Notes under the pieces: model-generated
Seen by the model: only the letters and a program-made list of their open reading frames with translations
Database searches by the model: none
What the model was told of the DNA's origin: nothing
Translations under genes and position numbers: made by a program
NCBI GenBank assembly: GCA_024399015.1
Contig: JAKSIC010000001.1
Coordinates: forward strand, 186,001 to 250,000
Length of the DNA stretch: 64,000 nt
Origin: Fibrobacter sp.
GTDB taxonomy: Bacteria; Fibrobacterota; Fibrobacteria; Fibrobacterales; Fibrobacteraceae
Reading direction: 5' to 3'
Part shown: positions 49,934-55,089 of the stretch, in pieces
Numbering within the stretch: position 1 is the first letter of the stretch
Layout of the letters: each line of letters starts with the position of its first letter

Positions 49934-51658
49934 CTAACCACCTAGCAAAAATTTCTGTTTGACACAACGAACATATACAACGTCTACATTTTCATAGGAA
50001 ATCGACAAACTGATTGACTGCATGAAAGTTTCTGCAAACGACATCCTAAATTGGTAGCCGTTACCATCCCACATAGCATAATCTATACCCTCTCCTAAAC
50101 TATAGAATGAAAATTCCTTTGATTCCAAATCCATAGAGCCAGTTCCGCCCATAGAAGCGTTAAATCCAATATCATATTTAGGATCAGCACCATCTACAAG
50201 ACGATCTCTCATTTGAGTTAGGCGACCGCCACCATAGTACTTCGTAAACTTTTCCCAATCAGAGAGCCTCGGTAAGCGCCAGCCATCGGGGCATATTCCC
50301 TGGGGATTTCGACCCGACATAACTTCAGCCACTTCATACTTGTCCCCATCAATAAGCATTTGCAAAGAATCAATTTCAATGCCATGACTCACATCAAGAG
50401 TGTACATGCGTCCATACTTTTGGCAATTTTCTTCTTCATTATTAAAACATACAGAAGAAGGAACTTCATACGCCAGGTTTTCCGCCATCCAGGTCACCGG
50501 CTCACCCTTCACATTTATTGTTATAGTCTTATAGGTTTTTCCGTCACGAGAATCAACCATTTCTCCATCTTCATGGACATAGCCCTGTTCCATTACAGAC
50601 CAGAAGCCAGAATCGCACACAATCACTTTTGTATTGGACACAATTGAGGTTTTTTCGCCCTGACGTTCTGCGGTACAACGACCGATATTATCCGTGACTT
50701 CAAAAAGATTAAAGAGATAGGACCTGGCAAGATTTTTTAATTCAGAATCATTTGAGTCAACACCGAAAAATGACAAACTTTCCTCAAAAAGTTCCTTTTC
50801 CGTCGTCATTTCAGCGATTAGGCTATTTCGAGCAAGATTAATGGTATTTGACCAATGGGAAACAAGCTTTCCTTTCCATTCACGACCACCATCCCAATCT
50901 CCGTCCCATATTCCATCTTCAGCAAAATCTTCTACCAAAGCGGCAAAGTGTCCAAACGTATTCATCACAAGAAAATAGTTCATCATTGAATAAAAAGCCT
51001 TAGCTTGAATTGAGCTTTCTTGTAGCATCAAAGATTCAAAGGATGGCATTTCATCATAAATAGCAAAGGCTTTCAACACTTCTTTTTCAGTTTGAGCTTT
51101 TGCAGATTTAAAATCCACACCCGATGAAACGAGTTTCAACATTCTTTGAGAACTCAGCGTTGAAAGGGCATTTAATGTCAAATTTCTCGTCTTACGAACA
51201 TCAATCAAATCACTACGCCAAAAAAGCATAGCTTCATCATAATGAAAGGCTTCTGAATCAGTTTCAACAATTAAATAGGGGCTCGTCACAGAAATACCGT
51301 CAATTTTAAAAGCTCCCGTCCACGCATTAGCAAAACCAAAGAAACTGACACCAGTTTTTTCAAAGGTCACAGGATCCAATTCGTAAATATTCACAGGAAT
51401 CGTTGCTCCCTCAGGTGCTTCTTCATACACAATAGAATCTTCGTCTACTGAATATATTTTCAAATTTTGGAGAACACCCGCAAGAGAAATGTTGTCCAAC
51501 GCATACACGCCAGTTTCTTCGGCACCGCCACCGGTCAGCGGACCATCAGTAGAACCTTCATTTGAACAGCCTGCGAACATGGCCATCATGAAACCAGCAA
51601 GAAGAGCCGGCAGAATTCGGCAGCAAAGGCCACCCATTTTTTGATTCAGATTAAACAT
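49934..51658 (-). CDS. Large FISUMP-domain lipoprotein
   Basis: A 574-aa lipoprotein. Lipobox MFAGC (Cys about 31) follows LLAGFMMAM. The N-terminal 350 residues hold a beta domain (GVYALDNISLAGVLQNLKIYSVDEDSIVY) and a helical, aromatic-rich region. The C-terminal 220 residues form a FISUMP domain: GEPVTWMAENLAYEVPSSVCFN, CQKYGRMY, GICPDGWRLPRLSDWEKFTKYYGGG and the final YVRCVKQK. GGTTAGGAGG lies 5 bases before the ATG. It starts 16 bases after the TIGR02147 gene ends, so both are one operon. It is likely displayed on the outer membrane; ligand unknown. Confidence 0.88.
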   Translation of the reverse strand: MFNLNQKMGGLCCRILPALLAGFMMAMFAGCSNEGSTDGPLTGGGAEETGVYALDNISLAGVLQNLKIYSVDEDSIVYEEAPEGATIPVNIYELDPVTFEKTGVSFFGFANAWTGAFKIDGISVTSPYLIVETDSEAFHYDEAMLFWRSDLIDVRKTRNLTLNALSTLSSQRMLKLVSSGVDFKSAKAQTEKEVLKAFAIYDEMPSFESLMLQESSIQAKAFYSMMNYFLVMNTFGHFAALVEDFAEDGIWDGDWDGGREWKGKLVSHWSNTINLARNSLIAEMTTEKELFEESLSFFGVDSNDSELKNLARSYLFNLFEVTDNIGRCTAERQGEKTSIVSNTKVIVCDSGFWSVMEQGYVHEDGEMVDSRDGKTYKTITINVKGEPVTWMAENLAYEVPSSVCFNNEEENCQKYGRMYTLDVSHGIEIDSLQMLIDGDKYEVAEVMSGRNPQGICPDGWRLPRLSDWEKFTKYYGGGRLTQMRDRLVDGADPKYDIGFNASMGGTGSMDLESKEFSFYSLGEGIDYAMWDGNGYQFRMSFAETFMQSISLSISYENVDVVYVRCVKQKFLLGG

Positions 51659-51674
51659 ATTATCCTCCTAACCT

Positions 51675-52499
51675 CTAAAGTTCTTTTTTTCTTGTCATCG
51701 GGAACAGTTGAATGTTCATGCGGTAGACTTCCTCTGTTTCATCATCCCGCGTTGCGATGTCCAGAATTCTCTTGCGGAAATCTGCGATTTCCTTGACAAT
51801 TTCTTCGTAAGCCTTACGAGTCAAACCTAAGGTAAGACCAGAGAAATTTCGCTCATCCTGATGAACACCCTCGATAGCTTCCAGAGCCATGCGACCCATT
51901 TGACGATGAAGTCCGCGAACAGCAATGGGAGTGACATCCATAGGGCCTGTGGTAACAATTTTTTCAGACTGATGATAATTGCCGTTTTCATCTTTCTTCA
52001 GCAAGCCGGCCTTCGTCAAGAACATCAAAGATTCTGAAACTTCAGCGGCGCTGACTCGAGAACGAATAGCATGAGCCATCTCTGAAGGCTTTGCGCCAGG
52101 CATGGACGGAGCCAATTCGCGAACTATCGGATTCTTCCAATCTTCAAAGAAGCGGAAGGCTATTCCTTCAAGAATGGTGACCTTATTACTGCCAGCAATT
52201 TCAAGCATTCTCTCAAAGGCAATCTTTTTATCTTGGTCACTCTTTCCATTGGAAAAAGCCACCATGGCCTTGAAGTAGTCCAGTTCATAACCAGACAACT
52301 GCATTGCAACACCAACGCGCTCCGCAGCAGAATCACTCAAGTTGAACTTGCCTTCGCTAACCTGCTTCAAATAGACCGGCGAAGTAAAACCCGCATCCTT
52401 GGCAAACTCTCTCCAAGAAAAAGCGGACTTGGCCTTACGATCGGAATAGTAATCCGAAATGTAGGCGCGATAGTCTTGATAATCAAGAATATTTTTCAT
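51675..52499 (-). CDS. TIGR02147-family protein (Fibrobacter paralogous, DUF4423-like)
   Basis: A 274-aa cytoplasmic protein of the TIGR02147 family. ILDYQDYRAYISDYYSDRKAKSAFSWREFAKDAGFTSPVYLKQVSEGKFNLSDSAAERVG is the N-terminal signature and contains a helix-turn-helix-like segment resembling XRE domains. The C-terminal DUF4423-like half includes a winged-helix-like stretch (AAEVSESLMFLTKAGLLKKDENGNYHQSEKIVTTG). This suggests a DNA-binding regulator; the function is not proven. It directly precedes the FISUMP lipoprotein and may control or sense through it. GGAGG precedes the ATG. Confidence 0.88.
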   Translation of the reverse strand: MKNILDYQDYRAYISDYYSDRKAKSAFSWREFAKDAGFTSPVYLKQVSEGKFNLSDSAAERVGVAMQLSGYELDYFKAMVAFSNGKSDQDKKIAFERMLEIAGSNKVTILEGIAFRFFEDWKNPIVRELAPSMPGAKPSEMAHAIRSRVSAAEVSESLMFLTKAGLLKKDENGNYHQSEKIVTTGPMDVTPIAVRGLHRQMGRMALEAIEGVHQDERNFSGLTLGLTRKAYEEIVKEIADFRKRILDIATRDDETEEVYRMNIQLFPMTRKKEL

Positions 52500-52704: not shown

Positions 52705-54300
52705 TTATTTCAAGCGAATCACATCGTCGCAAAGTTCGCATACAGCGGGACGATGAGTAATAAAGACCATAGTCTTGTTGGGATAAGCCGAGAACAAACG
52801 GCGGTACAGTTCCTGTTCCGTAGACTCGTCCAGAGAAGAACTGATTTCATCCAAGAGCAGGATGTTTCCCGGATGCAGAAGACCGCGGGCAATGGCAATA
52901 CGCTGAGCCTGGCCTTCGCTGAGACCACACCCGCGTTCCCCAAGAACAGAATCAATACCATTAGGAAGCTCATTGACAAAATCCGCGCAAGCCGTATGAA
53001 GAACCTGTTGCAGTTCATCATCAGTAGCTTCGGGCTTTGCAATTTGCAAATTGAAACGAACAGATCCACTTAAAAGAGAATTTCCCTGAGGCACAAAGGA
53101 CATGTCTCGCTTATTGGAAAGAACCTGGCCACTAGATGGATTTACCAAGCCAAGCATCAAGCGGAACAACGTGGTCTTGCCCTTGCCAGTTTCGCCCATG
53201 ATTGCAGTTCTGCTGTTAGGCTTGAAATCATAGGAGAAATGGTCAATGACGCTTTCGCCATCCACGTAACGGAAGGAAACATCCTTGAGGGAAACTTCTC
53301 CCGCGGTTTGCATAGGTGTTGCGGCAGCACCATCGCCGGCCACCCCGTTTTCAGGAACTTCACGAAGTTCTTCCAAGCGATCAATGCTTGCGGTAGCGTG
53401 AATCAGCTGCGGAGCCTCGCTTAAAATTTGCAAAATAGGCTGCTGAATTTGCATCACCAACTGCAAGAAAGACGTCATGACACCGAAGGTAATAACACCA
53501 TTACGAAGGCCGATGCCGCCCCACACAAAAGCCAGCATGTAACCCAGCGCAAAAGCGGAACCAATAAACGTCCTAGCCGTTACCGTAAAGCGGGCACGGT
53601 GCATAACGAGCCCTTTCAAGTTCTGCTGCTTGGAATCCAACTCACCGGTCATCCATTCTTCGCTATCCAAGGAACGCAGCACAGCGTTATGTTCCACCGT
53701 CTCCTGCACCCGCATCTGGATATCGCTTTCTTCCTTACGAATGGCAAGAGTCATCTTGCGTAGCGCGCGGGCGATCATCTTTCCAAAAACAGCAAAAGCA
53801 ACAGTCATCAACACAAGCGCCCATGCCAACTTCATGTCGAACCAACGCAACATCAAGAAGGCGCCAACCAGTTGCGCCAACGTCACGCAAATCTGGGGAA
53901 TAGATTCTGTAATGACCTTACAAACCTGATCCACATCCTTGGACATTCTGGAGGTTACATCACCAGACAGAAGAACCTTTTCATCAAAAAGATTTCTGCG
54001 GAAAAGGCAGCCGAACATCCGCAGGCGAATTTCGTTGTTCTTAGAAATGCTGGCCGAAGACGTCATGTAGGAATAGGCCTGACGCAGCAACACTCCGCCA
54101 AAAACCGCAGCCAGTAAAAGGGCCGCCATGCGAACCACATCACTATCGCTACCCGTGCGGATTGTTTCATCAATAAAAAGCTTGCTAAGCCACACCACAT
54201 ACAAGCCCAAGGCTACACGACCCACGCCAAGCAAGACGCGGGTTCCCATATTGCCTCGAACACCTGCGGTGTTACGCCATAGCCAAGCTAGATATTTCAT
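52705..54300 (-). CDS. ABC half-exporter (permease-ATPase fusion)
   Basis: A 531-aa exporter with six N-terminal membrane helices (about 1-310) and a C-terminal nucleotide-binding domain. Walker A AIMGETGKGKTTLFRLML, signature GLSEGQAQRIAIARGLL, Walker B NILLLDEISSSLD and H-loop FITHRP are intact. There is no N-terminal C39 peptidase domain, so any leader removal must come from another protein, such as the S26-like peptidase two genes upstream. Its ATG overlaps the stop of the PqqD-like gene (ATGA). Substrate unknown; context suggests a peptide. Confidence 0.88.
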   Translation of the reverse strand: MKYLAWLWRNTAGVRGNMGTRVLLGVGRVALGLYVVWLSKLFIDETIRTGSDSDVVRMAALLLAAVFGGVLLRQAYSYMTSSASISKNNEIRLRMFGCLFRRNLFDEKVLLSGDVTSRMSKDVDQVCKVITESIPQICVTLAQLVGAFLMLRWFDMKLAWALVLMTVAFAVFGKMIARALRKMTLAIRKEESDIQMRVQETVEHNAVLRSLDSEEWMTGELDSKQQNLKGLVMHRARFTVTARTFIGSAFALGYMLAFVWGGIGLRNGVITFGVMTSFLQLVMQIQQPILQILSEAPQLIHATASIDRLEELREVPENGVAGDGAAATPMQTAGEVSLKDVSFRYVDGESVIDHFSYDFKPNSRTAIMGETGKGKTTLFRLMLGLVNPSSGQVLSNKRDMSFVPQGNSLLSGSVRFNLQIAKPEATDDELQQVLHTACADFVNELPNGIDSVLGERGCGLSEGQAQRIAIARGLLHPGNILLLDEISSSLDESTEQELYRRLFSAYPNKTMVFITHRPAVCELCDDVIRLK

Positions 54301-54566
54301 TCAATCACACCGACTTTCTGCCATTCGCCAACAATGGCGGCAACATCATTTTTCGCCTGATCCAGGGAAACGTTGTATTCCTGGCAAAGGGCTTCGCTCA
54401 AGCTATCAACGGAAAAGTCACCCTGTTCCGCAGCGCGCTGCCAGAGCCACGCAGCAGTCTCGTTCAAACAAAGCAAACGACCAAAGTTGAGAGCGCCAAG
54501 GCCCTCCCCCATAATCACTTGTTCACCGCACACATCGCGCAGCACATAACCGCTTTTCAATTTCAT
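54297..54566 (-). CDS. PqqD-like (RiPP recognition element) protein
   Basis: An 89-aa stand-alone PqqD-fold protein. After three beta strands (SGYVLRDVCGEQVIMGEGLG) comes the family pattern LNETAAWLWQRAAEQGDFSVDSLSEALCQEYNVSLDQAKNDVAAIVGEWQKVGVIE. PqqD-like domains bind leader peptides of ribosomally made, modified peptides and hand them to maturation or cleavage enzymes. It sits 3 bases after the S26-like gene and overlaps the ABC gene. No radical SAM or other maturase is next to it. Confidence 0.82.
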   Translation of the reverse strand: MKLKSGYVLRDVCGEQVIMGEGLGALNFGRLLCLNETAAWLWQRAAEQGDFSVDSLSEALCQEYNVSLDQAKNDVAAIVGEWQKVGVIE

Positions 54567-54569
54567 AAA

Positions 54570-55016
54570 TCAGTTCCTATGAAATACTCGATACACCAAA
54601 AGTAACCACTTTCGAATGGGTCGCAGAACCTTCCAGACAAAAGAACCTATCTGGCGAGGCTTTGTATAAAGATAATGGGTTTTACCTTTCTTATCAACCA
54701 CATGAGTGGCCAACGCCTTCACGTCGGAAACAAGGCAGCGTTCACCGTAGGCAAGATTTCCATCACCCATGAGCCAAATTTCATTTTCTGCAATCCGATC
54801 GATACGATGAACCACGTAGCGCCTGTTATCGACCCAGGCCAAAATAACATGGCCGACCTTCAGCGATTCCGGCTTCACAAGAATAACACTTTCCTTGCCG
54901 CCCACAATAAAGGGCAGCATGCTACGGCCATTCACAGGGAAAGTCACGCTTACCCCATCCTCTACAAGCCTGATGGCCTCGGCAATAATGTTCTCGTCAG
55001 AAAAAGTGGAATTCAT
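54570..55016 (-). CDS. S24/S26-family signal peptidase-like protein
   Basis: A 148-aa protein with the S26 core: FPVNGRSMLPFI (Ser32, the nucleophile), VGHVILAWVDNRRYVVHRIDRI (His70 where bacterial SPase I has Lys) and WLMGDGNLAYGERCLVSDVKALATHVV. A Ser-His pair is the arrangement of Sec11/SipW-type peptidases. A basic hydrophobic C-terminus (RPIRKWLLLVYRVF) may bind the membrane. It leads an operon with the PqqD-like and ABC exporter genes, so it could remove a leader from an exported peptide. Confidence 0.78.
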   Translation of the reverse strand: MNSTFSDENIIAEAIRLVEDGVSVTFPVNGRSMLPFIVGGKESVILVKPESLKVGHVILAWVDNRRYVVHRIDRIAENEIWLMGDGNLAYGERCLVSDVKALATHVVDKKGKTHYLYTKPRQIGSFVWKVLRPIRKWLLLVYRVFHRN

Positions 55017-55035
55017 ACTTGTTAGTTTATTATAG

Positions 55036-55069
55036 AAAAATAGGCTCCCGCGATAAACGGGAACCTATT
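55036..55069 (-). terminator. Terminator of alaS
   Basis: On the minus strand AATAGGTTCCCG pairs with CGGGAGCCTATT (one mismatch) around a 7-base loop and is followed by TTTCT. It separates alaS from the S26-PqqD-ABC operon, whose promoter must lie in the same short gap. Confidence 0.85.
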
Positions 55070-55089
55070 CATTTTTTCTTTAGACTAAA

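Follow-up and report, generated by a model that had tools for sequence, protein, structure and literature searches.

Three adjacent genes of a Fibrobacter genome, encoding an S26-like peptidase, a stand-alone PqqD protein and an ABC exporter, very probably form the shared maturation and export module of a RiPP system akin to the linear polyphosphorylated peptides (LPPs), acting on several remotely encoded precursors with modification, cleavage and export as in the LPP system of Bacillota. The LPP family of RiPPs, described from the lpp cluster of Paenibacillus alginolyticus (Popov et al. 2026, PMC13381572), was said to be restricted to Bacillota, its role being unknown. An earlier sequence-only reading had taken the three genes for a complete set to recognise, cut and export a peptide, and this is well supported by the match of the trio to LppS-LppB-LppD, LppB and LppS, like LppK, having been compared by description.

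The peptidase, PqqD and exporter genes

The trio is encoded on the minus strand of the window (the whole 64-kb stretch of DNA that was analysed) in the order S26-like peptidase, PqqD, ABC exporter. The ORF coordinates confirm the tight packing noted before: a 3-base gap separates the peptidase gene (54570..55016, 148 aa) from the PqqD gene (54297..54566, 89 aa), which overlaps the exporter gene (52705..54300, 531 aa) by 4 bases. Between alaS and the peptidase gene lies a terminator-like hairpin followed by a T run (55020..55089, minus strand; minimum free energy -22.7 kcal/mol, z=-5.6, with 0 of 200 shuffles as good), which is absent from the listing of the terminator pattern scan. Its location suggests that the trio is its own transcription unit. 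On the 3' side of the trio, also on the minus strand, are genes for a TIGR02147 family protein (51675-52499, E=2e-88) and then a FISUMP-domain protein (49934-51658), a pair that is not conserved as a neighbour of the trio.

The first gene encodes a signal-peptidase-like, LppS-like candidate leader peptidase of the S24/S26 fold, recognized by sequence from matches to TIGR02228 (E=7e-5) and PF00717 (S24/S26, E=0.0016), neither of which reaches the cut-off. In a fold model with a pLDDT of 84.5 it matches LexA, UmuD' and SipA, and a PDB sequence search gave a chance match only. Each of 100 homologues out of 100 keeps Ser32, His70 and Asp85, which bears out the expected Ser-His enzyme and makes Asp85 a probable third member of the catalytic set.

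The stand-alone PqqD protein, a putative LppB-like RiPP recognition element (RRE), matches PF05402 at E=8e-14, above cut-off, in an ORF of its own adjoining the peptidase gene, as had been claimed, and is the only PF05402 match in this genome. A PDB sequence search with it found only TfuB1, weakly (E=0.06). The third protein, LppD/MsbA-like, combines an ABC permease (PF00664, E=1e-26) with an ATPase (PF00005, E=6e-20) and, again in agreement with the sequence-only reading, has no C39 peptidase domain; its best NCBIfam matches are of the CydC/CydD/MsbA type, all below cut-offs. A phage or defence origin of the trio was considered and rejected: PHROGs gave no match, and what PADLOC matched in the ABC protein reflects ATPase background.

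Partner enzymes and gene order in two phyla

The 64-kb window itself contains no precursor-like leader and no tail of the type described below. The statement that no modification enzyme or precursor is adjacent to the trio thus holds for the locus but not for the genome, in which both kinds of gene occur on other contigs. The HprK-like kinase is present as a single copy on contig C16, away from the trio. The C16 kinase itself has P-loop matches only; one homologue matches curated HprK-related models weakly, below cut-off (E=2e-4 to 5e-3, the best at 2e-4 to 3e-4), and a PDB search with the kinase gave weak matches only, HprK and PEP carboxykinase among them. NTP_transf_5 homologues are found on contigs C27 and C29; the C29 protein matches PF14907 at E=3e-40 (a homologue at E=1e-45), and the C27 copy was assigned by homology. 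The C27 gene directly follows what by eye is an ORF for a sugar-phosphate nucleotidyltransferase (L072:8192-10302), a possible hint at a nucleotide-sugar substrate. Radical SAM proteins, with 25 matches in the genome, were set aside as partner enzymes once the kinase and NTP_transf_5 partners appeared.

In about 35 Fibrobacter neighbourhoods, read with codon-scored gene calls, the trio is usually part of a longer operon of the form [large secreted protein]-[NTP_transf_5]-[HprK-like kinase]-S26-PqqD-ABC. Most other Fibrobacter operons carry the kinase, often together with NTP_transf_5, and in most of these loci the kinase gene is directly upstream of S26. The upstream genes are missing at the trio locus of this genome and of its two nearest relatives that were read. 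In nine Fibrobacter loci a DUF5662 protein (PF18907, E=1e-34) is encoded after the ABC gene, for example at L062:11620-12159. Fibrobacter G041 has a divergent cluster (L041:7551-14783) with an NTP_transf_5-like gene, a 923-aa protein, a PqqD-like ORF, a 762-aa protein that begins with an S26-type domain and is otherwise unassigned, and a kinase that shares only 24% identity with the main kinase family.

Nearly all of the Fibrobacter loci that were read, and most of those from Bacteroidota, keep the order S26-PqqD-ABC, so that the proposed check of neighbour conservation in these two phyla came out positive. A close homologue of the PqqD protein is found in 71 of 80 Fibrobacter genomes, which, together with the recurring gene order, indicates that the trio is more than a chance association. 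A scan of the genome collection with the kinase alignment found more than 570 relatives, the best 80 of which belong to Fibrobacter and to rumen Prevotella/Bacteroidaceae; kinase, S26, PqqD and ABC genes occur together in 60 of these best 80 loci. The rumen Prevotella/Bacteroidaceae possess the same cassette, with the kinase gene, and often NTP_transf_5 too, directly upstream of S26-PqqD-ABC and with the same leaders. Fibrobacterota and Bacteroidota are interleaved in the kinase tree (four changes, neither phylum monophyletic), which tentatively suggests transfer between them. Literature searches, with many subscription papers outside their coverage, did not turn up the system in Fibrobacter or in Bacteroidota.

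Precursors and the secreted proteins encoded beside them

The sequence-only reading supposed that the substrate might be encoded elsewhere and proposed a search for small ORFs with a shared leader. Such a search of this genome identified four short precursor ORFs, on contigs C16, C29, C2 and C22, that have the common leader KKxYxxPxM...LLxxS. A leader profile built from 30 rows found them with E values of 3e-12 to 5e-6, and an independent DNA pattern found the same four, with none in a backward control. The C16 precursor, a 53-codon ORF (MKMIKKEYEAPKMDIVDLKMEAPLLGASDGPEGVTEYDDEFGCNYNPEMDRKA), adjoins the kinase gene, and the C29 precursor (MQKKEYKAPKMKEIKLKARASLLSGSSSDGYYHGGISYNGMSDPVEKPEV) adjoins NTP_transf_5; ORFs with the same leader occupy the corresponding gaps of other Fibrobacter operons. 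The model of the paeninodin precursor, NF033524, gives a weak match (E=0.12) to one of the precursors, in the leader only.

Scans with regular expressions are full of antisense and chance ORFs, and the counts given here are of ORFs confirmed by the leader profile. On this basis 74 of the 80 Fibrobacter genomes encode precursors, from 1 to 13 each. Precursors and PqqD occur together in 70 genomes, PqqD alone in one, precursors alone in four and neither in five (Fisher p=3e-5); among genomes at least 90% complete the corresponding numbers are 40, 0, 1 and 3 (p=3e-4). The genomes with precursors and no detected PqqD are G023, G039, G044 and G079, three of which are at most 85% complete; G048 is the genome with PqqD and no detected precursor. 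An alignment of 90 distinct Fibrobacter precursors was anchored on YxxP, the Tyr and Pro of which were selection criteria and so are no evidence themselves; 81 precursors have Ser at Tyr+20, 83 have Leu at Tyr+16 and 78 have Leu at Tyr+17. The leaders are conserved and the cores variable and acidic (24% D+E, 4% K+R). The suggestion that the substrate may not be a classical modified peptide is disfavoured by these results, the substrate being a leader-peptide family that fits the LPP scheme.

Nearly all precursor genes immediately follow one that encodes a large secreted protein, and these proteins end in a single type of tail that reads W[FY]D[LM]xGRxLNxKPxxKGxYYxNGKKVIIK. A tail profile has only four strong matches in this genome, each followed by one of the four precursors, and in seven further genomes searched with the tail profile alone a precursor follows 28 of the 30 strong matches retrieved, making 32 of 34 in all eight genomes. 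Because the profile was trained on precursor-associated proteins, the pairing is free of bias from the choice of locus but not from the profile; it indicates an association between this tail type and the precursors, and does not mean that every secreted protein has a precursor. Most precursors in the Bacteroidota loci are likewise behind a tail-protein gene. A few precursors are not preceded by a tail gene, and in L118, L127 and L130 of Bacteroidota such precursors are located 19-41 nt before genes with secreted-protein- or lipoprotein-like starts. Two or three tandem precursor ORFs with differing cores follow a single secreted-protein gene at L116:4592-5028, L189, L097 and other loci. Some of the paired proteins bear repeat domains (Flg_new, GLUG, beta-helix). 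The fold model of one paired protein has a pLDDT of 54 overall, and only its last ~30 residues are well modelled. This pairing of precursors with large tail proteins is a new observation.

How the paired proteins are secreted may be indicated by the type IX translocon gene SprA, which is present in this genome. The tails match no curated T9SS model in NCBIfam or Pfam. They are alike in outline to the short T9SS C-terminal signals of Prevotella intermedia cargo (PMC11969387), with a tail of ~45 aa, a basic C-terminus, a conserved Gly before a basic residue and a GxY motif, but differ from them in being paired with precursors. The type IX route is a lead only.

Proposed pathway and competing explanations

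By analogy with Bacillota, the KKxYxxPxM leader of each precursor would bind PqqD via YxxP, and the HprK-like kinase, supplied from another locus, would phosphorylate the conserved Ser, which stands 20 residues beyond the Tyr. Assisted by PqqD, the S26-like peptidase would cut off the leader between LL and Ser. If the cut (^) were LL^xxS, the Ser would be at core position 3, as in LPPs; the alternative LLx[G/A/C/S]^S would place a small residue at -1 and the Ser at core position 1. Signal peptidases favour a small residue at -1. The core that the ABC protein would export is linear and acidic, with about 12-31 residues; NTP_transf_5 may attach another group to it, and the trio in the window would serve all four remote precursors.

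In the published LPP system (PMC13381572), the peptidase is of the SpI type, relies on S/H/D catalysis and needs its RRE in order to cut, while Ser3 of the core is polyphosphorylated by an HprK-like kinase; the NTP transferase had no detected effect in the study's host, and the exporter is MsbA-like. Fibrobacter resembles it in the S/H/D peptidase, the discrete RRE, the NTP transferase, the MsbA-like exporter without a C39 domain, and the short precursors with a YxxP leader and a conserved Ser after it; its kinase, a candidate counterpart of the LPP kinase, is a conserved partner gene with a weak match to HprK. The two differ in the leader, where Fibrobacter has LLxxS, without FET, and Bacillota LPPs have FETxxS, and in the position of the Ser, which in LPPs is two residues nearer the Tyr (Tyr+18). 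The system is genus-wide in Fibrobacter rather than patchy and occurs in other phyla; the machinery of this genome is split over several loci, and its precursors are dispersed behind large secreted proteins. Since the full published leader motif, YxxPxVLxHQxIxFETxxS (PMC13381572), is not matched by the Fibrobacter precursors beyond YxxP and a later Ser, the system is called an LPP-like variant rather than a member of the LPP family.

Other pathways share some of these parts. Paeninodin-type lasso peptide clusters (PadeA/K/N/B1) likewise combine a YxxP or WxxP leader, a B1-like RRE, an HprK-like kinase, a nucleotidyltransferase of the NTP_transf_5 kind and an ABC exporter, so the trio could be what remains of a lasso-peptide pathway, or such a pathway with another protease in place of its own. 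This is very unlikely: the peptidase here is of the S26 type and its pairing with the other genes is conserved across two phyla, the B2 cysteine protease (Transglut_core3, PF13471) has no match in the whole genome, and no lasso cyclase was seen in the translated neighbourhoods that were read. The HPr-rel-A system (TIGR04352/TIGR04353) and ScmC of SynChlorMet also join an HprK-like kinase to a PqqD-like protein, but the matches to them are weak, far below cut-offs, and they differ from the S26 peptidase, exporter and YxxP precursors found here. Least probable of all is a general exporter of non-peptide substrates with PqqD and S26 as unrelated passengers. The ABC protein does contain no peptidase and does resemble CydC/CydD/MsbA most closely; however, the fixed order S26-PqqD-ABC in Fibrobacterota and Bacteroidota, the kinase gene beside it and the co-occurrence of PqqD with YxxP precursors all argue against such passengers.

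The other alternatives concern the purpose of the peptide. Due to the operon-like pairing of precursor genes with those of the tail proteins, which are presumably secreted through Sec, the peptide probably works with its paired protein; a joint action at the cell surface is speculative. The exported modified core might be an anchor, partner or adapter, attached to the tail protein by binding or by a bond at the cell surface, for example as the acceptor in a sortase-like step, which would make the system an aid to surface-protein assembly and not a natural-product pathway. This reading, compatible with an LPP-like module and different from it in the product's purpose, is a tentative one that falls somewhat short of even chances. 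The adjacency of tail and precursor genes (4/4 here, 32/34 in eight genomes, and in Bacteroidota as well), the presence of SprA and the outline similarity to P. intermedia T9SS signals (PMC11969387) are consistent with it, but neighbouring genes need not encode interacting products, no curated T9SS model fits the tails, a few precursors lack an upstream tail gene, and Bacillota LPPs occur without type IX secretion. If the peptides were instead secreted bacteriocins or signals, with the paired proteins as adhesins or immunity factors that merely share their regulation, the 1-13 precursors per genome with conserved leaders and variable cores would be understandable, as would the Flg_new, GLUG and beta-helix repeats of some paired proteins. 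That explanation is unlikely, for the system is near-universal in the genus rather than patchy, the cores are strongly acidic, unlike most membrane-active peptides, and the paired proteins resemble large repeat-bearing secreted proteins, not immunity proteins. A broader conjecture, which we consider doubtful though slightly less so than the bacteriocin or signal explanation, is that in Fibrobacterota and Bacteroidota the phosphopeptide pathway is auxiliary to the secretion of surface proteins, in which each tail protein would have its own phosphorylated peptide, exported by the shared ABC protein, that joins or anchors the protein.

For a maturation operon without a visible precursor, a whole-genome leader search proved to be a solution. 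The LPP-like system is near-universal in a major fibre-degrading genus of the rumen and common in rumen Prevotella. Gene order links its precursors to one defined class of secreted proteins, which gives a concrete lead to the role of the peptides and connects a RiPP pathway with the export of surface proteins in a way that can be tested.
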